A stretch of 21,915 bases of DNA from a virus: positions 1-21,915 of IMG/VR virus record IMGVR_UViG_3300036800_000527; one strand, written 5' to 3'. Each line of letters begins with the position of its first letter. Position 1 is the first letter of the stretch. The notes beneath the pieces are model-generated. The model was not told where the DNA came from, did not search any database, and saw only the letters and a list, made by a program, of their open reading frames with translations. Position numbers and translations under genes: made by a program. Positions 1 to 21,915 of this stretch are shown here, piece after piece.

Positions 1-39
1 TCCACGTCTGCAAATGTTTTCTCTTCTAGGTGGGACGGC

Positions 40-54
40 GTTCGGATTCCGAAC
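40..54. other. 15 bp inverted repeat, possible operator
   Basis: Two perfect 6 bp arms, GTTCGG and CCGAAC, surround a 3 bp centre (ATT). The site lies about 105 bp upstream of the small zinc-ribbon gene. It could be a protein-binding palindrome, but a 6 bp inverted repeat also arises by chance. The rest of positions 1-158 shows no gene that I can support. Confidence 0.2.
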
Positions 55-158
55 GATGGTGCTTCGCATTTCAACGACAGTAGAGGTTGGCCGGTAGTTC
101 CCTTAACGCTTGCCGATGGGGCGAGCGTGGTTGTGTACATTCGAGCGAAAGGCATCCA

Positions 159-299
159 ATGCGTCTGCTAAAAGCAATCGGGTTTACTTTCTCGATGATG
201 GTATACGGCACTATGATCGCTTGTAAGAAGTGTAAGCGGTCTTTCGATAAAGTAGCCCACAACGGCTATTGCCCGTTCTGCGGGGAGAACAATAACTGA
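159..299 (+). CDS. Small zinc-ribbon protein
   Basis: The predicted product is 46 residues. Its C-terminal half has two CxxC pairs (CKKC and CPFC) about 16 residues apart, the usual layout of a zinc ribbon that binds one zinc ion. The N-terminal part (roughly residues 2-20) is hydrophobic and could be a membrane segment or simply upstream read-through. I chose the ATG at 159 because GAAAGG lies about 7 bases before it; a shorter form starting further in would still keep the ribbon. The gene is convergent with the minus-strand gene ending at 325, with only 25 bp between them. Function unknown; the ribbon is seen in the sequence, its partner is not. Confidence 0.45.
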   Translation: MRLLKAIGFTFSMMVYGTMIACKKCKRSFDKVAHNGYCPFCGENNN

Positions 300-324
300 T
301 TTTCATTTCGGAGGGCTGACGATT

Positions 325-816
325 TCACTCGGAATCCCTTGCTTTCGATTTCCTCGGCTCGTCACGGATGATCTGGACGATGCGAGTCAGGATCGCCTTG
401 AGGCGTGGGGGAAGGTATTCCGGCAACGTGTCGCGGGCCGGGGTTTTCTTATTCGTGACGTTCAGCAAAATTCCGAGCATTCCCCAATCCTCGTCCTTGA
501 TGATCTGTGCTGCGTCCTCAATGTCCTCGGACTTGATTAGAACCTTTATCAACTCATGTTGAAGTCTGAGAGCGATGCTGACGTGCATCAGGTTCCCCAT
601 TGCTTCGGCAACGGCCTCATCGGTCAGGTAAACGCAACCGGAATCCGGGTTGATCGTGATCGTCCCATCTTCGGTAATCGAGAACCCCCATTCGTTTTCT
701 CGTTCGCAACCGGGAAGGCCGTTTAGTTCCAGAACGTCGGCGACTGAGTAGACCTCAAATGTCATGGCAGGATTGTAATCGGATCCGCTGGCGGGAAGAA
801 ACGCAAGGTTTGACAC
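325..816 (-). CDS. Protein of unknown function
   Basis: An open frame encoding about 163 residues, not recognised as any family. It is mixed alpha/beta in character: a beta-rich first half with WGFSITEDGTITINPDSG, then a helical second half and a basic, charged C-terminus (DEPRKSKARDSE). I chose the GTG at 816 because AGGA sits 9 bases upstream, inside the end of the 87 bp repeat. An ATG at 765 has no clear ribosome binding site but remains possible. The frame also stays open through the repeat to a GTG at 876. It runs in the same direction as the phage late operon and would directly follow it if the plus-strand cassette were removed, so it may be a phage gene cut off from its operon by the insertion. 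Confidence 0.55.
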   Translation of the reverse strand: MSNLAFLPASGSDYNPAMTFEVYSVADVLELNGLPGCERENEWGFSITEDGTITINPDSGCVYLTDEAVAEAMGNLMHVSIALRLQHELIKVLIKSEDIEDAAQIIKDEDWGMLGILLNVTNKKTPARDTLPEYLPPRLKAILTRIVQIIRDEPRKSKARDSE

Positions 817-820
817 ACCC

Positions 821-907
821 TGCCGTCCTGATACCGTTCGTTCGTCGGCGTCGATGCGGCTAAGGTATCCCCCCACCTACTGCCAGCGTCACGCCGACTT
901 TTTCATT
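821..907. repeat. Direct repeat copy 1, 87 bp, left border of cassette
   Basis: This matches positions 3181-3270 at about 80 of 90 aligned columns (7 mismatches, 3 single-base gaps), in the same orientation. The right-hand 35 bp is almost identical, ending in CGCCGACTTTTTCATT. On the plus strand, arms GTCGGCGT (844-851) and ACGCCGAC (891-898) form a perfect 8 bp inverted repeat followed by five T, and AGGT/ACCT can pair inside the loop, so the element could act as a plus-strand terminator. On the minus strand it carries the likely ribosome binding site of the 325-816 gene. It could also be a recombination site. Confidence 0.85.
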
Positions 908-957
908 GGCGGGCGAAAGATATTGCACGTCTGCGAGTCCTCCTTTGGGAGCCTGCG

Positions 958-1503
958 ATGGGTTGGGAAGCCACACTCCGGAAACGGCTAGATGAGGTTG
1001 AAGGGAAACCGTCTAAAGGGGTGGCCGTGTCGATCAAAGTGCGCATAATGGGCGGATGCTTTCACCGGCAACACTCCCCGGAAGCGTATCGGATCATCGA
1101 CCACGCTCTAAGTGATTTCCCTCCTGCCGATGGTCGCTTTGAAGAGCATGAAACCGGCCCCGAACTTCTCGTGCTTTTCGGCCTGACTACGGCAGGGTTG
1201 GTGCTGACGAAGAGCGTTATTGATCTCGTCACAACGATTATCAAAGCACGTTCGGAAGGGCAGAAAAAGGGAGATCATCCTCGTGATTCCATTGAACTAA
1301 TCGTCCGGGGTTTTGACACCGAAGGGAAGATGTTCGAGGAGAAGGTGATGAGGATCAACGCCGGGGAGGATGTCGCCCGTGCGGCGGTCGAAAAAGCACT
1401 CGGCATCGGATTACAAAAGCAATCCCCGGTGAAGAAACAGAACGTGCTGACCTCTCCGGTCAAGGCGTCAACAAAGAAGAAGAACCGGAAGAAGAAGAGA
1501 TAA
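958..1503 (+). CDS. Cassette gene 1: unknown protein with a hydrophobic helix and basic tail
   Basis: This 181-residue protein opens the five-gene plus-strand cassette. A first beta-type region (residues about 23-60) is followed by a hydrophobic, membrane-like helix near residues 70-93 (LLVLFGLTTAGLVL is its core). Then comes a second beta stretch (SIELIVRGFDTEG), a helix, and a Lys/Arg-rich tail from about residue 155. The layout of beta segment, hydrophobic helix, beta segment vaguely resembles the EACC1-type small domains of bacterial conflict systems, but that is a weak impression, not a match I can demonstrate. The ATG at 958 has GGGAG about 6 bases upstream. The next gene starts 8 bp after its stop. 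Role unknown. Confidence 0.7.
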   Translation: MGWEATLRKRLDEVEGKPSKGVAVSIKVRIMGGCFHRQHSPEAYRIIDHALSDFPPADGRFEEHETGPELLVLFGLTTAGLVLTKSVIDLVTTIIKARSEGQKKGDHPRDSIELIVRGFDTEGKMFEEKVMRINAGEDVARAAVEKALGIGLQKQSPVKKQNVLTSPVKASTKKKNRKKKR

Positions 1504-1511
1504 CGTGTCCC

Positions 1512-2258
1512 ATGCCGCAAACCCTTCCCCTGTTTGGTCGCTTTGCCTCTCTCATTCGTGGGCTGCCGGGACGCGATTTAGTCGAGTCCGATCTCGTCCC
1601 CTTCAAGTTAGCCAGCGGTGACTCGGTGGAGATTTTCTATGCTCCATTCGACTGGTTGAACCTTTCGGCCCGCGTCGTTATTTGCGGCATCACGCCGGGC
1701 CGTAACTCCATGTTGTTGGCGTTGAAAACTTCGGCGGCTGCTCTGCGGGCTGGTGCGTCCCATGAGGATGCGGCCCGCAAAGGCAAGCAGACGGGTTCGT
1801 TCTCGAACATGCGGAAGAACCTTATTTTCCGTCTCGATGCAATCGGCGTTCATGTCGCTCTCAAATTGGATTCCACGGCCCGTCTATTTTCCGACCGCGC
1901 GGACCTTCTTCACACCACGTCGGCAGTTTGTTATCCCGTGTTCAAGGATGGCGAAAACTACAACGGATATTCGCCTCGCCTTTCGCGTCACCCCCTTCTA
2001 AAGAGGTTCATCACCGAATACCTGACACCTGAAATCGTTCAATTTCCTCGTGCGATCTTCGTCCCCAACGGGCCTGCCGTTGCTGAGGCGCTTCTGATGG
2101 CGGGTGTCGATGAGCGGCGATGTCTCTGCGGATTCCCTCATGCGTCGAATGGTCCCGGCGCAAAGGATCGAGCGGCTAAATTTGAACAGGAACGTGAACA
2201 GATGATGAGCAAGGTGGCGGCATGGGCTTCGGGTAGCGATCTGATTTCGGAAGGGTAG
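1512..2258 (+). CDS. Uracil-DNA-glycosylase-superfamily protein
   Basis: The 248-residue product carries the landmarks of the UDG fold. These are a motif-A-like GITPGRNSM after a hydrophobic strand (residues 59-67), a central TTSAVCYPVF segment (135-144), a FVPNGPAVAEAL strand-turn-helix (183-194), and GFPHASNGPG (207-216) in the place of the motif-B loop that reads into the minor groove. Family members remove uracil or other modified bases from DNA, leaving an abasic site. No iron-sulphur Cys set is evident. Motif A lacks the acidic residue of classical UNG, so the target base cannot be named. A glycosylase attacking modified phage DNA (as Brig1 does) is a conceivable role. It is the second gene of the cassette, 8 bp after gene 1. 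Confidence 0.75.
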   Translation: MPQTLPLFGRFASLIRGLPGRDLVESDLVPFKLASGDSVEIFYAPFDWLNLSARVVICGITPGRNSMLLALKTSAAALRAGASHEDAARKGKQTGSFSNMRKNLIFRLDAIGVHVALKLDSTARLFSDRADLLHTTSAVCYPVFKDGENYNGYSPRLSRHPLLKRFITEYLTPEIVQFPRAIFVPNGPAVAEALLMAGVDERRCLCGFPHASNGPGAKDRAAKFEQEREQMMSKVAAWASGSDLISEG

Positions 2259-2268
2259 AATCTCCGAA

Positions 2269-2586
2269 ATGAGACCTAATGATCCTTCACGGGTCGAAAG
2301 CTTTGACCTCCGACAATTGGCCGAAGGTAAAAAGTTAGGATTGCAGCCGCTTCACGTTATTTGCTATGACCACGAAATGAATCGAGGCACTTCCGAGGGA
2401 GTTTCTCTTATCGTGTTCGTACGTTTCGTGCCACGGGTGGGAGAGTCAATCTGTTTGGAAGATGGCACTCTTTGCGAAGTTGAAGAGGTTTATCATAAGG
2501 CTCGTCGGCTTCCGAACAAGCTGGTTGAATTGGTGGCCACGGTTGGGGCATTTCGCATTCCGCGCACCAAGATCGCTGAGGCGTGA
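2269..2586 (+). CDS. Cassette gene 3: small beta-type protein, function unknown
   Basis: A 105-residue protein. The centre (residues about 44-75) reads as alternating beta strands with tight turns: VSLIVFVRFVPRVGE, then ICLEDGTLCEVEEVYHK. That suggests a small beta barrel of the kind often found in short phage and Planctomycetes-like accessory proteins. No catalytic motif was recognised. It starts 10 bp after the UDG-like gene and ends 3 bp before gene 4, so it is almost certainly co-transcribed. The ribosome binding site is weak, with AAGGG only at a long distance, so translation may depend on the gene before it. Confidence 0.65.
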   Translation: MRPNDPSRVESFDLRQLAEGKKLGLQPLHVICYDHEMNRGTSEGVSLIVFVRFVPRVGESICLEDGTLCEVEEVYHKARRLPNKLVELVATVGAFRIPRTKIAEA

Positions 2587-2589
2587 TTC

Positions 2590-3018
2590 ATGGGCAAGGG
2601 TGGTCGAATTCTCGCGGCGGTCGCACTCGCGGGCTTTTCCGTCGCCTTCTCGTGGCGATACCTCCAAACCTACGGACGTGCCGAACAATCTTCTGGTCCA
2701 GTTTCATCGCCCGTCGTTCCGGCGGCGAACGATCCCCACTTCCGTGAATCGCTCGTGTCGAACATGGCCAAAGAAATCACCGGGGCCGTGATGCGATACC
2801 GTTCCGATCACGGCGAGTTTCCCCCGGTCGATGGGTTCTGGACGGCCATCGGGATAGCTCCCCTCCACAACCCTTTGAACGGCAGTGACAAAGTGGTCCC
2901 GATGTCGTCGGATCGGGATGCGGACTACAGCGCCGTAGGGTGGGTATATTCAGAACGTGGCGGCGTGGTTTTTCCGGGCGTGGTCTTCAATGCCTCTCGG
3001 CCTGCCACACAGCCATGA
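2590..3018 (+). CDS. Membrane-anchored pseudopilin-like protein
   Basis: The 142-residue product has an N-terminal transmembrane segment (about residues 6-22, ILAAVALAGFSVAFSW) after a short basic start, then a linker rich in Pro, Ser and Val. The globular domain has helix ITGAVMRYRSDHGEFPP (about 64-80), then NPLNG and a strand region with WVYSERGGVVFPG. That order (helix, Tyr-Arg-x-x-x-Gly-x-x-Pro-Pro, an NPLN loop, a final W-x-Y strand) resembles the C-terminal domain of GspG-like type II secretion pseudopilins. There is no clear prepilin peptidase site, so it may be a permanently anchored relative. Fourth gene of the cassette; its stop overlaps the next start. Confidence 0.6.
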   Translation: MGKGGRILAAVALAGFSVAFSWRYLQTYGRAEQSSGPVSSPVVPAANDPHFRESLVSNMAKEITGAVMRYRSDHGEFPPVDGFWTAIGIAPLHNPLNGSDKVVPMSSDRDADYSAVGWVYSERGGVVFPGVVFNASRPATQP

Positions 3019-3176
3019 TGATCTTGTGGATTATCCTCTCGGGCGTCGTGGCTCTCCTAGGGTGGGGCTGGCTGGTCGGTCGTCTGCTCGGCCTCGATGA
3101 CGGTCCCCCTCCGGGCTGGGACGATTACCCTGTCGATTCGGAATGGCCGGTCGATTGGGACCAATTCCCCGAATAA
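3015..3176 (+). CDS. Small membrane protein with acidic tail
   Basis: A 53-residue product beginning at the ATG that overlaps the previous stop by four bases (ATGA), which points to coupled translation. Residues 2-25 form one very hydrophobic helix (ILWIILSGVVALLGWGWLVG). The rest is short, acidic and rich in Pro, Trp and Asp (PPPGWDDYPVDSEWPVDWDQF). It probably sits in the membrane with the acidic tail in solution, and could partner the membrane-anchored product of the gene before it. No known family was recognised. The frame is open further upstream (from 2940), but that part lies inside gene 4. The right-hand copy of the direct repeat begins 4 bp after the stop. Confidence 0.6.
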   Translation: MMILWIILSGVVALLGWGWLVGRLLGLDDGPPPGWDDYPVDSEWPVDWDQFPE

Positions 3177-3180
3177 TCAC

Positions 3181-3270
3181 TGCCGTCCTGATACGGTTCT
3201 TTTGTGGGCGTCGATAGCGTCTAAGGTTTTCCCCCCCACCTACTGCCAGCGTTACGCCGACTTTTTCATT
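3181..3270. repeat. Direct repeat copy 2, 90 bp, right border of cassette
   Basis: The second copy of the 821-907 element, same orientation, about 89% identical. It fills the whole gap between the stop of the last cassette gene (3176) and the stop of the minus-strand phage gene (3269-3271). The plus-strand end again reads ACGCCGAC followed by five T. Its left pairing arm has one changed base compared with copy 1, so the stem is weaker here, but AGGT/ACCT inside the loop is kept. The position directly after a convergent gene pair suits a terminator, and the paired direct orientation suits a recombination scar. Both readings are inference. Confidence 0.85.
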
Positions 3271-3568
3271 ACTTCTCGAAGGCAAGAGGATTCTTGATAA
3301 TTTCCTCAAGCTTCGCAATCTTCTGCCTCGCAATCCGGATGATGTACTCGCTTGCCTCTGCGCCGCTCTGAAACACTTCCTCGACTTTGCATCTCTTCGT
3401 CCGAAATCCCTTCGGATTGACCCTGCTTTGAACGTCCAAAGAAACCGGTTCGGTCCAATTTGTCGGGTCCACCCCGGTCACCGTCCCTTCCCAGATCGAA
3501 GGTAATTCAGAATATTCGCTCCACATCACAACAATTACTTTTTGCTTCGGCTGGATGTGCTTGTCCAT
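3269..3568 (-). CDS. Small protein of unknown function, end of late operon
   Basis: A 99-residue protein starting at the ATG at 3568, which has AGGAAAGAG just upstream; the longer open frame to 3778 is GC-rich read-through overlapping the neighbouring gene. The first half looks like a small beta barrel (VIVVMWSEYSELPSIWEGTV), the second half a charged helix (ASEYIIRIARQKIAKLEEIIK). This is the last minus-strand gene before the cassette; its stop codon lies at the very edge of repeat copy 2. Function not recognised. Confidence 0.65.
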   Translation of the reverse strand: MDKHIQPKQKVIVVMWSEYSELPSIWEGTVTGVDPTNWTEPVSLDVQSRVNPKGFRTKRCKVEEVFQSGAEASEYIIRIARQKIAKLEEIIKNPLAFEK

Positions 3569-3620
3569 TGGCTCTTTCCTTTTCCTCGCTCGCCATTCTA
3601 ACGGCGACGTGGGCGGGGTT

Positions 3621-3854
3621 CTAGCTCGTTGCCCGCTTGGCACGGCTACACCCACAGTCTTTGGGCTGCGAGGTCGTCGGAAACAATCCGGGGGCGGGCG
3701 GCTGCTGCCGTTCCTCCGCTTCAAACTTCCCCTTCGGACAATTCCCCTGCCGGGCATGCTCGATAATGTCCACCCCATCGACGGTACAGGCGCATGGTCC
3801 GTTGCATGCGGCCTGCCTCATGGGGCATCGGTGGCATACGTGGATATTTAACAA
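3621..3854 (-). CDS. Small Cys-rich protein, putative metal binder
   Basis: A 77-residue product. It has CHRC near the start, then ACNGPCAC, a region DGVDIIEHA, NCPKGKF, a Pro-rich linker and CGC near the end, about eight Cys in all. The CxxC and Cx3CxC groupings suggest zinc or iron binding or disulfides. The only start that keeps the first CxxC is a TTG at 3854 overlapping the previous gene's stop, with GGGAG about 9 bases before it; starting at the internal ATG would lose the pair. The spacing after the Cys-rich tail protein suggests translational coupling. Function unknown; possibly linked to maturation of, or contact with, its Cys-rich neighbour. Confidence 0.6.
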   Translation of the reverse strand: MLNIHVCHRCPMRQAACNGPCACTVDGVDIIEHARQGNCPKGKFEAEERQQPPAPGLFPTTSQPKDCGCSRAKRATS

Positions 3855-4429
3855 GGCGTCACGCTCCCGGTTCCCCCGGTCCCGAGCGTGTAAATCGTCG
3901 GCCCGGTCCCCGCACAACCGCACGTCGTCAAGGCGTTGTTCACGGTGAAGGTGACGCAACAGGGCGTGGTCGTGTAGGTCGCATTGAAGAGAAGAATCTG
4001 ATTGCTGGCGTCGGTGATTTGAAGTTTGAATTGCGTGGTGCTAGTCCTGACAAGCTGAATTGCAAAACCGAACCCTGCGCTTCCGCCCGTGCATGTCGTA
4101 CTCGCGTACTCCGTCCCTGTGGTCGGAACGGACGGGGAAAAGCACGTCCACGCGCATGACCCGTTACGGCTCAAAAGATACGTCCCGTTGATGGTGCTGC
4201 CTGCGGTGATTTGCATCGACAGGCCAGTTGCGGGACAACTGACACACCCGGCGCAGAGCGTGATTCCCGCAAAAGTGACGTGGTATTGTGTGGGCGTGTC
4301 GCCCAGCGTGCAAAGCGAGCATGCCGTACCGCTGATACAGGCGCATCCGGCGGCGCAGCAGCACGCTGAATTGAATGCAATCCCGCCCCCAGCTTTCCAG
4401 AGGATTCCCGCCCCCGATTTCCAGTACAT
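3848..4429 (-). CDS. Cys-rich putative tail or adhesin protein
   Basis: About 193 residues with 18 Cys (close to 9%), many clustered: CCC, CxxxC and CxxC groups in the first 60 residues, a later CC pair, CGC, and a Cys as the last residue. Between them the sequence is rich in Thr, Ser, Gly and short beta strands (FKLQITDASNQILLFNATY), typical of phage fibre or adhesin domains. I start at the ATG at 4429, five bases after AAGGGG; a GTG two codons upstream (4435) is possible. It is the third gene after the tape measure, where tail-tip and host-binding proteins lie. Receptor binding is inferred from place and composition only. Confidence 0.7.
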   Translation of the reverse strand: MYWKSGAGILWKAGGGIAFNSACCCAAGCACISGTACSLCTLGDTPTQYHVTFAGITLCAGCVSCPATGLSMQITAGSTINGTYLLSRNGSCAWTCFSPSVPTTGTEYASTTCTGGSAGFGFAIQLVRTSTTQFKLQITDASNQILLFNATYTTTPCCVTFTVNNALTTCGCAGTGPTIYTLGTGGTGSVTPC

Positions 4430-4438
4430 TCCCACCCC

Positions 4439-5164
4439 TTAGCAGGTCGAACCCGTGTAGATCGTGGTCCATCCGCTCTTCGTTCCGGCGTCCAGAACCA
4501 ATTGCGTTTGGGTCTTCACCTGTAGCTGTTGCGACCCATCGACTACCTGAAAGTCCGTTATGTTCGTGACGACGGTTCCGGTCGGGCGCTCCTGAGCAAC
4601 CGAATACAGGTGAACGGTTCCTCCCGAATCGCAATAGGCAATGCCGGGGCTTTTCGCGGACGGGGTGATGTACTGACAGTTTGAGTAACGGGTCACGTCG
4701 GGCGTCAGACTGCTGGCGATTACATCGGTCCCCGTCTCGTCGTAAACCGTGTAGGTGAAGCTGCACGTCGTTCCCGCCGACATGCTTCCCGCAATCCCCC
4801 CGGAAACGGAAACCTTCACCGGGAAAATCTCGGCTGGCGTCTTAAATTGATAGATGTTGTTGCCGACGTAGGTCAACCAAACGAAAACATTCATGGGGCA
4901 CGGAAAGGCGTTGGCTTCGTAAGCGTTGGCGGTTCCTGCTGGCGGTGTACTGCCGGGCCAAACGGTGGGCACGCCCGATGAGTTGACGTAATATTTTGTC
5001 CACGAATAAGCGGCGGGCGTGGCTCCATTCGATGCCGTTATCTTGACAAGAAATTCGGGCAATGAACCACGGCGATAATCTTCGGGCGATGGCAAATGCG
5101 TTACTTTTTCCGTGGTCCGCACGGCTTGCCCGATACGCTGAATGTCTTTTCGTCCAAACATCAT
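4439..5164 (-). CDS. Putative tail-tip protein
   Basis: A 241-residue, largely beta protein (segments such as FPVKVSVSGGIAGSM and CSFTYTVYDETGTDV) with six Cys, one of them the final residue. Its ending (TTIYTGSTC) recalls the end of the next protein (PTIYTLGTGG through to TPC), suggesting related C-terminal modules. The N-terminus is helical and charged, starting MMFGRKDIQRIGQAVR. An AAGGGGG ribosome binding site precedes two adjacent ATG codons. Position between the large post-tape-measure protein and the Cys-rich protein supports a virion role at the tail tip; no enzymatic motif is visible. Confidence 0.7.
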   Translation of the reverse strand: MMFGRKDIQRIGQAVRTTEKVTHLPSPEDYRRGSLPEFLVKITASNGATPAAYSWTKYYVNSSGVPTVWPGSTPPAGTANAYEANAFPCPMNVFVWLTYVGNNIYQFKTPAEIFPVKVSVSGGIAGSMSAGTTCSFTYTVYDETGTDVIASSLTPDVTRYSNCQYITPSAKSPGIAYCDSGGTVHLYSVAQERPTGTVVTNITDFQVVDGSQQLQVKTQTQLVLDAGTKSGWTTIYTGSTC

Positions 5165-14847: not shown

Positions 14848-16743
14848 CTAATCCAACGAGAAGGCTTCTGCCCCGACGTGTGCGGTCTGTGCGAATTGAT
14901 GCCGTCTGGCCTCGGTCAAGGCGGTTACAAGGGCGCTCACAAAGTCGATTTTGCTCGCCCGCTTGCCAGCATATTTCCCCTTGGCGTTCGGTTTGATCGG
15001 CCAATATTGGCCGTGCTGATTGGTCGTTATCTCGACATTCGAGCAACAAAATTGAGCAACTGGATTGATCGGCAGTGCGATAGATTGCTCTTGCAATCGG
15101 CGGTCAAGCTCTTCGCATCCTGCCGATACGGTGTATCCCTGTGCCACTGGCCTGCATTCGATCCCTGCGGCCTTTAGAAGCTCGATCACTCCCCCCTGAT
15201 ATGCACGGTCATAACAGACGGCGGCGATTGGGTGGCTCTTGTGGCTCTCGATGATCGTCGCTGCAATCCGCTGTTGCACGTCGATTGAGATCGTCCGCTC
15301 GTCCAGCAACGTGATTGCCTTTTGTTCGTCCCATTCGCTGTACGGATGCAAGTCTTTGGCCTCGTACTTCTCTGCCGTCTGCCTCGGCAACCAAAAGCGG
15401 CAATCCGTGTGAAACTTGGGGGCGGTGACGAAAACATCCGTCATGGCGCAAAGGTCGTCCCCGTTCGATAAGTCAAGTCCGACGTATCGGGCTGCTCCCT
15501 CCACTGCCTGCCGGTCAAGGGGCTGGCTCGCCCGGCGAACCACGTCCATATCAAGCCATTTGTCCGATGCTGTTACCCATTGGGACAAATACAGGCGGCG
15601 GTATCGGGCCTCGCCCTTTGCCTGCTCTGGTTTGATGGCATCGAATGAAACGATTGCGGGTATCGACGGGTTGGCGGCTCGTGCGGCGTCTTCTGATTTC
15701 CAGTCGAGTGATTTGGGCGATTCAAAGATGACCGGCAAGAGCGCTTTATCTTCCGTGGTCCCTGCGAGTACGGCGGTAGCTCGTTCGTGCAACTTCCATG
15801 CAAAGGAATTTCTATCGGCGGCGGCGTTGGTGTCGATGAGCAAAAGCGGCTGACTGCGTTTGAAGAGATTGGCACAAAGCATATCAAAAGCGTGTGCGGT
15901 GGCGGCGGGCCATTCGTGAATTTCCGATGCGAGGATTGCCGATGGTCGTGCGCCGGATCGCCCGTTTGGTTTCCCGCTGACGATTCCCCACTTGGAATAC
16001 TTCGGGGCGTCGATGACGTATTGCTTCGGGTCAATCTGCGGATGGTCCCGCAACTGCGGATGTTCGTTGATGTACTTTTTCCCGGCGTCGAAAGTTAGAT
16101 TGGCCTGCTCGAAGGATGACGCCATTGATATGACGTGTGCGCCTGCCTCCCCATCCCCCAACAAAAGATACAAGCCGATGGCGGCAAGTAAGGGCGTTTT
16201 CCCGGCTCCCTTCGCACTGATAAGGTAAAGTTCCCTGAAGCGCCGTAGGTGGTCCGCTCGTCTCTTCCATCCGAACAAAGTTCGGATTAGCTGCTGCTGC
16301 CAGTGGAGTAAGTCAAACGACTTGCCTGCCCATTTCCCTTCGTAGTGCCTGCAAAACTTCGCAATGAATTTGATCGGCTTTTCGGCGGCGTCGGGGTCGT
16401 AATAAAACTCTTCGTCCTCGATGGGCTGCAATGTGCCGGTTGCGGTCGTCGGCTCCTGTTTTTCGATTCGTGCCTCAAGCCAGTTGTGGCAAGGCAAACA
16501 AACGGCCATGAATCCAGACGGGTCGAATCGCCGTTCCCATCCCTCGGGCGTATCAATCGGTATCTTGTGGTGAACATGCTCGGCAACAACCTTTTGGCAT
16601 CGCTCGCAAGTCGGGTGTTCACGGATGAAGGCGGTGCGTGCGCCCGATGGTCCCCGCCACGCTGCTGAGTTGTAAAACTGGCGGCTCTTTTCGTTGCGGA
16701 CGTGCTTGTTGTAGTAGGCTGCTGATCCCCCCTGAGACGGCAT
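14848..16743 (-). CDS. Large terminase with fused N-terminal HNH nuclease
   Basis: The packaging motor, 631 residues. Residues about 20-95 are an HNH endonuclease: C46/C49, the HHK motif at 58-60, C82/C85 with H86. The terminase ATPase follows: adenine-binding segment near HWQQQLIRTLFGW (147-159), Walker A SAKGAGKT (176-183), a Walker B-like strand ILASEIHEW (270-278). The RNase-H-like nuclease carries D424 (VGLDLS), D512 (CYDRAY) and D600 (KIDFVSA). In HK97-like cos phages the HNH protein is normally a separate gene next to the terminase and is needed for cos cutting; here both are one chain. The start overlaps the small terminase stop (TAATG). Confidence 0.93.
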   Translation of the reverse strand: MPSQGGSAAYYNKHVRNEKSRQFYNSAAWRGPSGARTAFIREHPTCERCQKVVAEHVHHKIPIDTPEGWERRFDPSGFMAVCLPCHNWLEARIEKQEPTTATGTLQPIEDEEFYYDPDAAEKPIKFIAKFCRHYEGKWAGKSFDLLHWQQQLIRTLFGWKRRADHLRRFRELYLISAKGAGKTPLLAAIGLYLLLGDGEAGAHVISMASSFEQANLTFDAGKKYINEHPQLRDHPQIDPKQYVIDAPKYSKWGIVSGKPNGRSGARPSAILASEIHEWPAATAHAFDMLCANLFKRSQPLLLIDTNAAADRNSFAWKLHERATAVLAGTTEDKALLPVIFESPKSLDWKSEDAARAANPSIPAIVSFDAIKPEQAKGEARYRRLYLSQWVTASDKWLDMDVVRRASQPLDRQAVEGAARYVGLDLSNGDDLCAMTDVFVTAPKFHTDCRFWLPRQTAEKYEAKDLHPYSEWDEQKAITLLDERTISIDVQQRIAATIIESHKSHPIAAVCYDRAYQGGVIELLKAAGIECRPVAQGYTVSAGCEELDRRLQEQSIALPINPVAQFCCSNVEITTNQHGQYWPIKPNAKGKYAGKRASKIDFVSALVTALTEARRHQFAQTAHVGAEAFSLD

Positions 16744-18564: not shown

Positions 18565-19473
18565 CTACTTCGCGGTATGGGCTGCGGATTCCTCCCATGC
18601 TCGTCGGGCTGCGCGTGCCTTTTCTTCGGTGTCGAAAAATCCCAAGTGGATTTTTCGCTGGTGGCGGCAACCGTTTGCCTTCCACTTTTTGACGCGAGTG
18701 TCGTAAAGCACTCCTCCGGGCTTTCGCTTCGCTTTGGATTCCTTCAGCCGTTCAATCGTTTCCACCGGGTGTGCCTCAGCCTCCGCAACGGCTGCGGTGG
18801 CGGCGTCGGACGTGAGGTAGTGGCCAAGGAAATACTGCGTTCCGTGGTAGCAGAAGTCGGCTCTCCACCGATTGCGGGTCGCGTAGTGACTTGCCCCGCG
18901 TAGGCCGCTCTCGATTCGTCCGGTTCGGTATGCCCGTCGAATGCCCAAACGCTCCCAGCGTTCAAGTTTGGCGGCGGCTGCTACGGCCTCCAATGCGTTT
19001 CGCTCTTCAACCCATGCCAGACGATGTTCGATTTCCTTTCGCTGCTCTTCGATGTCGCGGGGGCGTGGAACGTGGAACCGCGTCTTCACCGGCGGCTCGT
19101 CCGTCGCGGGCGGCTCGTCCTCATAGGGTGCGCGAAGATGGGCGTATCGGTGGGCGTCGGAAACAAATTGTGCGAACGTCCCTTCATCTAGGTCGCGAAA
19201 ACATGACGCATCTATGGATGCCATGCACGCATAGGTCGGGCGTTTTTGTTCGGCATAAAACTCGCATGCGTCCCGAAGGATGTTCGGCAACGTCCCCTCT
19301 TCGGCGGCTTCGATGCTGAGGAATAATTCCAGAAGTAAATCTTGAAGATTGTCCGGGCTTCCTTTGGCCAATTTTCTCAGGTAGGGCGTGACGGCTTCGA
19401 CAATTCGAGCGTAGGCGTGTTCTCGTTCGCGTCCTGTCGCGGTTCGGAGGATTCGGAGGGCGTCGTCGAGCAA
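18565..19473 (-). CDS. DNA-binding protein with two AP2 domains and a sigma-like N-terminus
   Basis: A 302-residue protein. Two AP2/ERF-type DNA-binding domains stand in tandem at the C-terminus. The first is at about 190-235 (WRADF, then YFLGHYLTSDAATAAVAEAE), the second at about 253-296 (WKANG, then IHLGFFDTEEKARAARRAW), each with the AP2 order of three strands plus helix. The first 80 residues (LRKLAKGSPDNLQDLLLELF, later DACEFYAEQKRP) resemble region 2 of ECF-type sigma factors, a tentative reading; no region 4 was recognised. A coiled-coil linker (140-180) joins them. No HNH nuclease, the usual partner of phage AP2 domains, is present. The start is TTG at 19473 right after the previous stop, with GGAGG seven bases before it. 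Confidence 0.7.
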   Translation of the reverse strand: MLDDALRILRTATGREREHAYARIVEAVTPYLRKLAKGSPDNLQDLLLELFLSIEAAEEGTLPNILRDACEFYAEQKRPTYACMASIDASCFRDLDEGTFAQFVSDAHRYAHLRAPYEDEPPATDEPPVKTRFHVPRPRDIEEQRKEIEHRLAWVEERNALEAVAAAAKLERWERLGIRRAYRTGRIESGLRGASHYATRNRWRADFCYHGTQYFLGHYLTSDAATAAVAEAEAHPVETIERLKESKAKRKPGGVLYDTRVKKWKANGCRHQRKIHLGFFDTEEKARAARRAWEESAAHTAK

Positions 19474-20065: not shown

Positions 20066-20428
20066 TCAACGGAATTGCCATTCGTCGTCGGGATGTATGA
20101 ATGATGGCCTCTCTTTGCTCCGGATGATCGCTTCGGCCTCTGCTTCGGCTTTGGCGACTGCTTCCCGGTCGGGCGGCTCTTCACCCTTCAGGCTGTATTC
20201 CTGTGCTCTCAGAAGCGTTTCCAGCGTGCTTTTGCGGTGGGCAATCCAGTAGGAAGCATCGTCGTTGTCTATTGCTTCGCGTACGATCTTCCGAACGCGG
20301 TCCTGCAACTGACTGTTGTCGTGCTGGTAATAGAGCAATTTGATAAGGGCAGGCATCTTCTGTGCCCTGATCTTCTCTGCCCATGCGATTTGTTTCGGTG
20401 TTCCGGTCATGTTCTTTTTATCGACCAT
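20066..20428 (-). CDS. Small helical protein, function unknown
   Basis: A 120-residue, mostly helical protein. It has the segment TGTPKQIAWAEKIRAQKM near the N-terminus, a motif I have a general memory of from short phage and plasmid proteins of unknown role. A Trp-containing segment SYWIAHRKSTLETLL follows, then a Glu/Ala-rich helix and a closing FIHPDDEWQF. I start at the ATG at 20428, which shares its A with the primase stop (TGATG); a TTG one codon earlier (20431) also works. Coupling to the primase gene suggests a replication-linked role, which is inference. Confidence 0.6.
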   Translation of the reverse strand: MVDKKNMTGTPKQIAWAEKIRAQKMPALIKLLYYQHDNSQLQDRVRKIVREAIDNDDASYWIAHRKSTLETLLRAQEYSLKGEEPPDREAVAKAEAEAEAIIRSKERPSFIHPDDEWQFR

Positions 20429-21915
20429 CAAACTAATAATTCGTGTCGCGTTGTCTCGCGGGTTATCGCGTCTACCTCGTCCTGCACGGCGTCAATGATC
20501 TTCGCGTCTCCCACGTATTCCACCTTCACGCCGTTGGCGAATTTGACGAACTCCGCATACCTCCAATGATGACGGCCTATGCTGTACTTCTGAGCAACCC
20601 CGGTTCCGTCCTTACTGGGAATGTATCGACGGTCCAGACATTCGATCAGCCCGGCGTCCAGAAGGGTTGTTCTGATGGCGAGAATCTTATTTCTTCTCTT
20701 ACAAGTCCGGTCCGTGAGTCCTTCGGCGTTCAACTTCTCAAACATCTGCATGATGGCGTCGTAACCTATCGACCACTGACGGCGGGGGTTCTCGTGCGTC
20801 TGGAAGCTGTTGACTGTGTAGGCGTAGAGGGCGATGCAGAGGTCTTCGGCGGAAACACCCTCTTCTGTGCTTGATGTTTGTGTATCACAGTGGGTTTCGA
20901 CCGCGTGCATAAGCTGGGGTTTCACCTCCGCATAGCCTCCGTCTCCCTGCCGGTCGGGGTCGAACTTCCTGCTCCTGAACCGAATCACGTCTTTCGCTCG
21001 CTTGGTGCGTGCGGGGTGGGTGGCGCCGGCGACGTAAACGGTCTCGTAATGGGCCAGAAGTTCATCAAAGGTGGGAAGGCGGTGGTGATTCTCAGTGAAC
21101 GTGAAGCATGCGGCGTTCATGCGTTTGAAGGCGCAATTCTCGTCCTTGGGGACGGGTCTGCTCTTACGGTGGCGGCGGGAAGGCGGGAGAGGCTCTACTG
21201 TGCTTGATGTTTGTGTATCAAAGTCAAACTCCTCCATCGCGTCCGCGTCATTTACGATGCTTTTGAAGGCTGCCAGCAAATAAACCGGCATCGCGCGTAA
21301 TCTGTTCACGTCGGCCATTCCCCCGGTGCATAAAGGGGCTTGGAAGGGCTTGGCGCGACTCGTAAGCTTGTTCCCCTGCCAGAGATTGAAGCGGCCTGAG
21401 AGTTCAACTTTCGCGTCGAAAGTATCGGAAACAACCCGCTGAAGCTTGGTTTCCGCGAGGTCCATAAGGACGTTGAATCTCGCCCGGTTGCAATGGCCTA
21501 CCCTGACGGCGACATACAGGTGATAACCTCGTCTCGACGGCTCAAGGTAGGAGTCGGGGAAGTAGGTGGATTGAATCCACCGGGCGGCGTCAAGGGCGTC
21601 CGTTTCTCCATGATGGGCGTCGATGTCGATCATCAGTAAGGCAAGTCCGGTTCCACGGGCGGGCCTGACGTGGGCCTCCTCATGGCCTTGCAGATGACGC
21701 TGAATCATTGTCTGCGTGATACGTTGCGGCCATATGCCCGGTCCTCCCTCAAGTTCCCACTCCTGATTGACGGCGGGAACACTGCCGTCACGGGCGCGGT
21801 AATTCCAATCCGTCCGGTCGATCAACTGATAAATCCAGCGTGCGTAAGCTCTGGTCGTGGGCGTGTACTTCGGTGGCTTGCTTCTGCTGCGTTTGCTGCG
21901 TTTGCTGCTGCCCAT
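20428..21915 (-). CDS. Primase of the archaeo-eukaryotic primase (AEP) type, may be partial
   Basis: At least 495 residues. The N-terminus is very basic (MGSSKRSKRSRSK). The AEP catalytic core is visible: the DxD pair in LALLMIDIDAHHG (D97, D99), a GYH motif in PSRRGYHLYVAV (130-132, the sXH-like motif), and the third-motif region DAKVELSGRFNLWQ (167-180). The C-terminal half carries charged helices and a likely winged-helix segment (about 390-450). It should make primers for phage DNA replication. The ATG coincides with the window edge, so the true start may be further right. The codons for DTQTSST occur twice as a nearly perfect DNA repeat 333 bp apart. Confidence 0.82.
   Translation of the reverse strand: MGSSKRSKRSRSKPPKYTPTTRAYARWIYQLIDRTDWNYRARDGSVPAVNQEWELEGGPGIWPQRITQTMIQRHLQGHEEAHVRPARGTGLALLMIDIDAHHGETDALDAARWIQSTYFPDSYLEPSRRGYHLYVAVRVGHCNRARFNVLMDLAETKLQRVVSDTFDAKVELSGRFNLWQGNKLTSRAKPFQAPLCTGGMADVNRLRAMPVYLLAAFKSIVNDADAMEEFDFDTQTSSTVEPLPPSRRHRKSRPVPKDENCAFKRMNAACFTFTENHHRLPTFDELLAHYETVYVAGATHPARTKRAKDVIRFRSRKFDPDRQGDGGYAEVKPQLMHAVETHCDTQTSSTEEGVSAEDLCIALYAYTVNSFQTHENPRRQWSIGYDAIMQMFEKLNAEGLTDRTCKRRNKILAIRTTLLDAGLIECLDRRYIPSKDGTGVAQKYSIGRHHWRYAEFVKFANGVKVEYVGDAKIIDAVQDEVDAITRETTRHELLV
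20861..20891. repeat. In-gene direct repeat, left copy
   Basis: Thirty-one bases matching 21194-21224 at 29 positions; the central 23 (CTGTGCTTGATG onward) are identical. On the minus strand it encodes DTQTSST in the primase frame, around residues 343-349. The codons (ACA, CAA, TCA) are more A-rich than their surroundings. Confidence 0.85.
21194..21224. repeat. In-gene direct repeat, right copy
   Basis: The second copy of the 31-base element, in the same orientation and reading frame, exactly 333 bp (111 codons) from the first. It encodes DTQTSST around residues 232-238 of the primase, just after the catalytic core. Together the copies bracket a segment of about 100 residues. Confidence 0.85.

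Follow-up and report, generated by a model that had tools for sequence, protein, structure and literature searches.

Two hairpin-bearing spacer copies flank a five-gene operon where a phage late operon ends

Why is a five-gene operon at the end of a phage late operon, oriented against the late genes, bordered on both sides by nearly the same spacer? We investigated this question in IMGVR_UViG_3300036800_000527, a linear viral record of 21,915 bases that is probably a fragment; the window discussed below is this whole record. Its minus strand carries genes for terminase, portal, protease, major head protein, connectors, major tail protein and tape-measure protein. In this siphovirus-like phage, the cassette sits where the minus-strand late operon ends. 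A swappable cargo slot, created by insertion at the repeat, had been proposed for this locus. Our data lead to a related reading, to which we give a probability of about one half: p1–p5 would be an accessory ('moron'-like) operon lodged between two hairpin-bearing spacer copies through recombination.

Other parts of the record also deserve description. The large terminase (14848-16743, minus strand) has an HNH-endonuclease-like domain fused at its N-terminus, with PHROG HNH families matching within residues 7-118 and TerL from about residue 98. The C-terminus of the product of 18565-19473 (minus strand) weakly matches an AP2 DNA-binding domain (E 0.00095, which falls short of the Pfam cut-off), and a late-operon gene at 3848-4435 (minus strand) encodes a 195-aa cysteine-rich protein of no known family. 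A second direct repeat, of 32 nt and 94% identity (20860-20891 and 21193-21224, spacing 333 nt), lies inside a primase-like ORF (20428-21915), where it corresponds to a motif duplicated around DTQTSST in the protein.

The repeat pair and its neighbouring genes

Self-BLAST of the window aligned the two repeat copies with 81 of 91 columns identical (89%) and 3 gap columns (E 4e-26, 113 bits). The next-best direct repeat in the window scored 50 bits, and the best of 30 dinucleotide-shuffled windows reached 36.5 bits. These results confirm the repeats originally placed at 821-907 and 3181-3270 with about 89% identity, with edges one base further out (820 and 3180; Table 1). The record contains two copies. 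Differences between them are concentrated in the middle 37 columns, which hold 9 of the 10, with 1 of the 10 in the outer 54 columns (Fisher p = 0.001). We also considered the repeat as a coding remnant, given that frames are open on both strands; this was rejected because the substitutions, judged by eye, are mostly non-synonymous.

Table 1. Features at the left end of the window, with coordinates in the 21,915-base record.
Feature	Coordinates	Strand	Description
Partial ORF	1-171	+	Window's left end
Small zinc-ribbon-like ORF	159..299	+	Left of gene B
Gene B	325..816	-	Start ATG765 or GTG816; codon usage late-gene-like
Repeat copy 1	820..907	+	Divergent region between gene B and p1; 55-nt hairpin 844-898, then TTTTT
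p1	958..1503	+	181 aa; no relative found; low-confidence alpha/beta model
p2	1512..2258	+	248 aa; uracil-DNA-glycosylase superfamily protein (predicted)
p3	2269..2586	+	105 aa; no family match
p4	2590..3018	+	142 aa; hydrophobic stretch at N-terminus; no relative found
p5	3015..3176	+	53 aa; ATGA overlap with p4
Repeat copy 2	3180..3270	+	Fills convergent gap, p5 stop to gene A stop; hairpin decayed
Gene A	3269..3568	-	Last late-operon gene before cassette; stop overlaps copy 2

The five cassette genes are tightly packed on the plus strand between 958 and 3176, confirming that an operon runs here against the phage genes. Copy 2 starts 3 nt past the p5 stop codon, and its other end overlaps the gene A stop codon (3269-3271). 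The last cassette gene had been described as ending 4 bp before the right repeat; the closeness holds, and the gap is 3 nt by the revised edges. On the other side, gene B has a possible GTG start (816-814) that lies 3 nt outside the left edge of copy 1, and a Shine-Dalgarno-like AGGA lies 9 nt upstream of this candidate start, inside copy 1. Measured from ATG765, the divergent region between gene B and p1 is 192 bases long and contains copy 1. The geometry of the proposal is also borne out: removal of the cassette and one repeat (2,363 bases) leaves gene A, one repeat and gene B. Since the repeat is far above chance and its edges coincide with gene ends, these data support recombination at the repeat.

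Codon usage of the cassette deviates strongly from that of all the late genes (chi2 160; late-gene blocks reach at most 85), and genes A and B do not differ from the late genes (p = 0.92). The late-like usage of these two flanking genes supports the moron-like reading of the operon between them. We rejected the cassette's codon usage as proof of foreign origin, because the deviation vanishes when the late genes are strand-swapped: at four-fold third positions, the cassette then fits them (p = 0.22). The plus strand is rich in T along its whole length. Since the deviation reflects strand asymmetry, composition gives no sign of recent import. The codon deviation is best read as a strand effect, in a cassette that looks at home in the replicon. 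With 11% divergence between the repeat copies, the simplest view is that the event is old, or that the exchange took place between two spacers that were already different.

The p2 protein and its relatives on mobile DNA

PF03167, the UDG superfamily profile, matched 6 of 7 members of the p2 family (best E 9e-5), although the sequence of p2 itself fell short of E = 1. The AlphaFold2 model of p2 has a pLDDT of 88 and a pTM of 0.88. The VIA-align 2 matches listed for it, with Z from 10.8 to 8.7, are nearly all UDG (including family 4), UdgX, SMUG1 and TDG structures; the top entry is titled only 'conserved protein', and Sulfolobus UDG 4ZBY matched with Z 10.2. Foldseek alone gave marginal E-values, the best being 0.003 for a SMUG1. 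Motif 1 (G-x-x-P-G) reads G-[IL]-T-P-G in all members of both alignments, p2 included. Motif 2, of the H-P-S type, is HAS in p2 and mostly HPSG in its relatives. Known families do not usually have Thr as the third residue of motif 1. As judged from the model and the motifs, p2 is a UDG-superfamily protein with the UDG alpha/beta fold, and the predicted enzyme most likely removes an altered base from DNA.

Relatives of p2 were found in 26 PLSDB records, on plasmids of Proteobacteria and Firmicutes (32-45% identity among the matches listed), and on six other viral contigs; they align across most of their length. Several of the plasmid relatives have tyrosine-type or other recombinases within a few genes. 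Other plasmid neighbours include regulators, toxin-antitoxin pairs and a cytosine methyltransferase with a Vsr nuclease, and further plasmid neighbourhoods have none of these. On the viral contigs, neighbours identified from their translations include methyltransferases, head-tail genes and a DEAD-box helicase. The p2 family is absent from PHROGs, so p2 is not common phage equipment. A comparison with PADLOC gave no convincing match, one member reaching E 0.011 against 'E1-E2'. By sequence comparison, then, the relatives of p2 on mobile DNA support cargo status for the cassette.

Some of these neighbourhoods have features of their own. On one viral contig (L099:3980-5146), a p2 relative with an extra C-terminal extension lies directly behind terminase and head-tail connector genes and by a DEAD-box helicase; this may be a case of such cargo at a different place in a late operon. 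On a second viral contig (L097:1233-4813), the p2 relative adjoins two ParB-fused DNA methyltransferase ORFs. Two Thauera plasmids (L102:5663-6768 and L005:5664-6768) share a 270-nt ORF and a p2 relative at equal spacing, and the first of them has tyrosine recombinases on both sides.

Among the cassette proteins, p2 alone could be given a name. Neither p1, p3, p4 and p5 nor genes A and B belong to a family in Pfam, PHROGs or PADLOC, and no plasmid relatives of p1 or p4 were found. The smallest product, p5, is probably a small membrane protein. A resemblance of p1 to an EACC1-like component was considered and rejected, with no support from Pfam and a p1 model too weak to search. Since p1, p3, p4 and p5 are all orphans, their cargo status rests on p2 and on their position.

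Origin of the arrangement

No related phage with an empty site (gene A, one repeat, gene B) or with alternative cargo was found in the collections searched (IMG/VR, INPHARED and PLSDB). The 24-base core of the repeat had no exact match in IMG/VR, and a 17-base core found two unrelated contigs in which similarity ended at the seed. A similarity search of INPHARED with the repeat returned nothing, as did an Rfam search; PLSDB gave partial matches only (E near 1), and 39 other viral records, related or cargo-bearing, gave 19-base matches only. Among 84,980 genomes, the 24-base core had one match, of 25 bases, inside a tyrosine-recombinase-like ORF of an actinobacterial MAG. The chance expectation for a 24-base match is about 0.002 (257e9 x 2 / 4^24), and more in GC-rich DNA. 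As the surroundings are without similarity, we rejected this match as a true relative and attribute it probably to chance.

Searches with phage proteins gave a similar picture. No close viral relatives turned up in single-protein searches with a tail protein, TerL, p2 and gene B. In INPHARED, neither gene B nor the major head protein had a match, and the best of the 581 relatives in the terminase alignment is about 31% identical. By these comparisons the phage belongs to an unsampled group. For the insertion originally predicted, the geometry and the cargo character of at least one gene (p2) fit, whereas repeat-sharing phages or close relatives were not found. Also counted against it are the limitation to two copies on one fragment and the lack of a recognised recombinase among the window ORFs scanned; with the window a fragment, such a gene could lie elsewhere.

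We propose that p1–p5 entered, or was assembled, at the late-operon end by recombination at the spacer. The probable route would be homologous exchange between similar, non-identical spacers, one contributed by each parent; another would be an old insertion with duplication of the spacer. Copy 2 would now separate two convergent operons, while copy 1, placed in the control region from which gene B and p1 diverge, may supply the ribosome-binding site of gene B. A UDG-superfamily cargo enzyme could be of use in repair, or in competition with other phages whose DNA is modified. From this one contig, a swappable cargo slot is plausible.

A different reading starts from the hairpin: the repeat could be a working regulatory element put to use in two places (an intrinsic terminator on the plus strand, or an operator or leader), copied by local duplication and with no role in exchange. 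On the plus strand, both copies contain an inverted repeat followed by TTTTT, and the RNA of copy 1 folds into its 55-nt hairpin at -29.9 kcal/mol (z -5.8), with no shuffle equally good. Copy 2 sits exactly where p1–p5 needs a terminator, and a C to T change in its 3' arm still permits a G-U pair on the plus strand. However, the good hairpin lies in the divergent region, where there is little to terminate, and the fold of the copy that follows the operon is no more stable than those of shuffles (-14.2 kcal/mol, z -0.2). A pure terminator is expected to retain both stem arms. Furthermore, the best-conserved parts of the repeat are its ends, and conserved sequence extends 24 nt upstream of the hairpin and into the loop. 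Since conservation goes beyond what a terminator needs and the copy 2 hairpin has decayed, it appears that the two copies share ancestry and not only function; the borders favor shared descent with some constraint on the ends. A consensus terminator scan picked neither full hairpin, although with a simple stem model and loops limited to 8 bases it could have missed them. The terminator used twice, which the original prediction had offered as its alternative, is thus weakened by a strong hairpin in the divergent copy and a decayed one behind the operon, and the wider regulatory reading is possible but rather doubtful.

Two further readings concern what moved and by which machinery. Because of the plus-strand genes at 1-299, which were missed in the first description of this DNA, gene B stands alone on the minus strand, with plus-strand stretches on either side. 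This suggests a mirror reading worth keeping, in which gene B and copy 1 are the inserted piece, and the plus-strand genes at 1-299 and p1–p5 were once one operon up to copy 2. However, gene B has late-gene codon usage and forms a continuous minus-strand arrangement with gene A, so we consider this unlikely. Alternatively, the repeats could be sites of a site-specific recombinase (folded and attC-like, or tyrosine-recombinase att), in a phage with exchangeable cassettes. The conserved ends, the variable middle with its length change and the internal dyad symmetry recall integron cassettes; the cassette terminates right before the 3' site, and p2 relatives lie near recombinases on plasmids. Against this, the ends show no GTTRRRY/RYYYAAC cores, the window (a fragment) has no recognised integrase, there are two copies only, and the hairpin of copy 2 is largely lost. 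We regard such sites as very unlikely here. A still bolder version, in which the repeat is the recombination site of a new phage cassette-exchange system, with fixed ends and a variable middle, and the lineage gains and loses cargo operons that include a new antiphage base-excising branch, is highly improbable.

If it is true that the spacer marks both cargo borders in this unsampled phage group, the spacer would be a simple search handle for cargo slots and also for new antiphage or repair genes.

Comparison with known systems

Morons are accessory phage genes that bring their own expression signals. The moron-like reading agrees with this in that an accessory operon follows the late operon on the other strand, and a hairpin element with a T-run stands at its end. 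Unlike in morons, both borders here share an 88-91 bp element, and there are five genes rather than one or two. Terminator-like elements are present, whereas a scan of positions 1-5000 for sigma70-like promoters found none.

Repeated intergenic stem-loops at the borders of variable genes, proposed as exchange sites, also occur in T4-type phages, whose genes are shuffled through promoter-terminator stem-loop cassettes called PeSLs (Arbiol 2010 and Comeau 2014, as cited in PMC4503421). A PeSL combines an early promoter with a stem-loop and recurs in many intergenic copies. Compared with PeSLs as described there, the element in this record differs in having two copies, with no early promoter detected, in a phage that is not T4-like and for which no shuffled relatives were seen. 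In the proposed reading the module works like a moron or like one bordered by PeSLs, but given this copy number and promoter result, we do not file it as a PeSL. The extended start-associated sequences (ESAS) of cluster K mycobacteriophages are 13 bp sequences plus 17 bp inverted repeats, present in many copies per genome and tied to gene starts (PMC3203893). They resemble our repeat as intergenic elements with an imperfect inverted repeat, and copy 1 is just upstream of a possible gene start; copy 2, in contrast, falls between two stop codons.

Integron cassettes likewise carry an imperfect dyad element after their genes, and their insertion leaves like elements on both sides. The original statement that the repeat ends do not match integron attC sites was upheld by eye, with no RYYYAAC/GTTRRRY cores. 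With no attC core sites, no IntI recognised in this window fragment and two copies only, the cassette is not filed as an integron.

For p2, the closest described functional models are Brig1 and Brig3, antiphage DNA glycosylases of the UDG superfamily, with a reported Dali Z of 9.2 for Brig1 against 4ZBY (PMC11078745, PMC13160076). The likeness is one of fold and setting: both have a UDG-superfamily fold, predicted in the case of p2, and members of the p2 family lie on mobile DNA, some of them close to genes for DNA modification. Representing a UDG-superfamily branch that occurs across plasmids and phages and is missing from PHROGs and PADLOC, p2 is a candidate for glycosylase-based phage defence, a new field.
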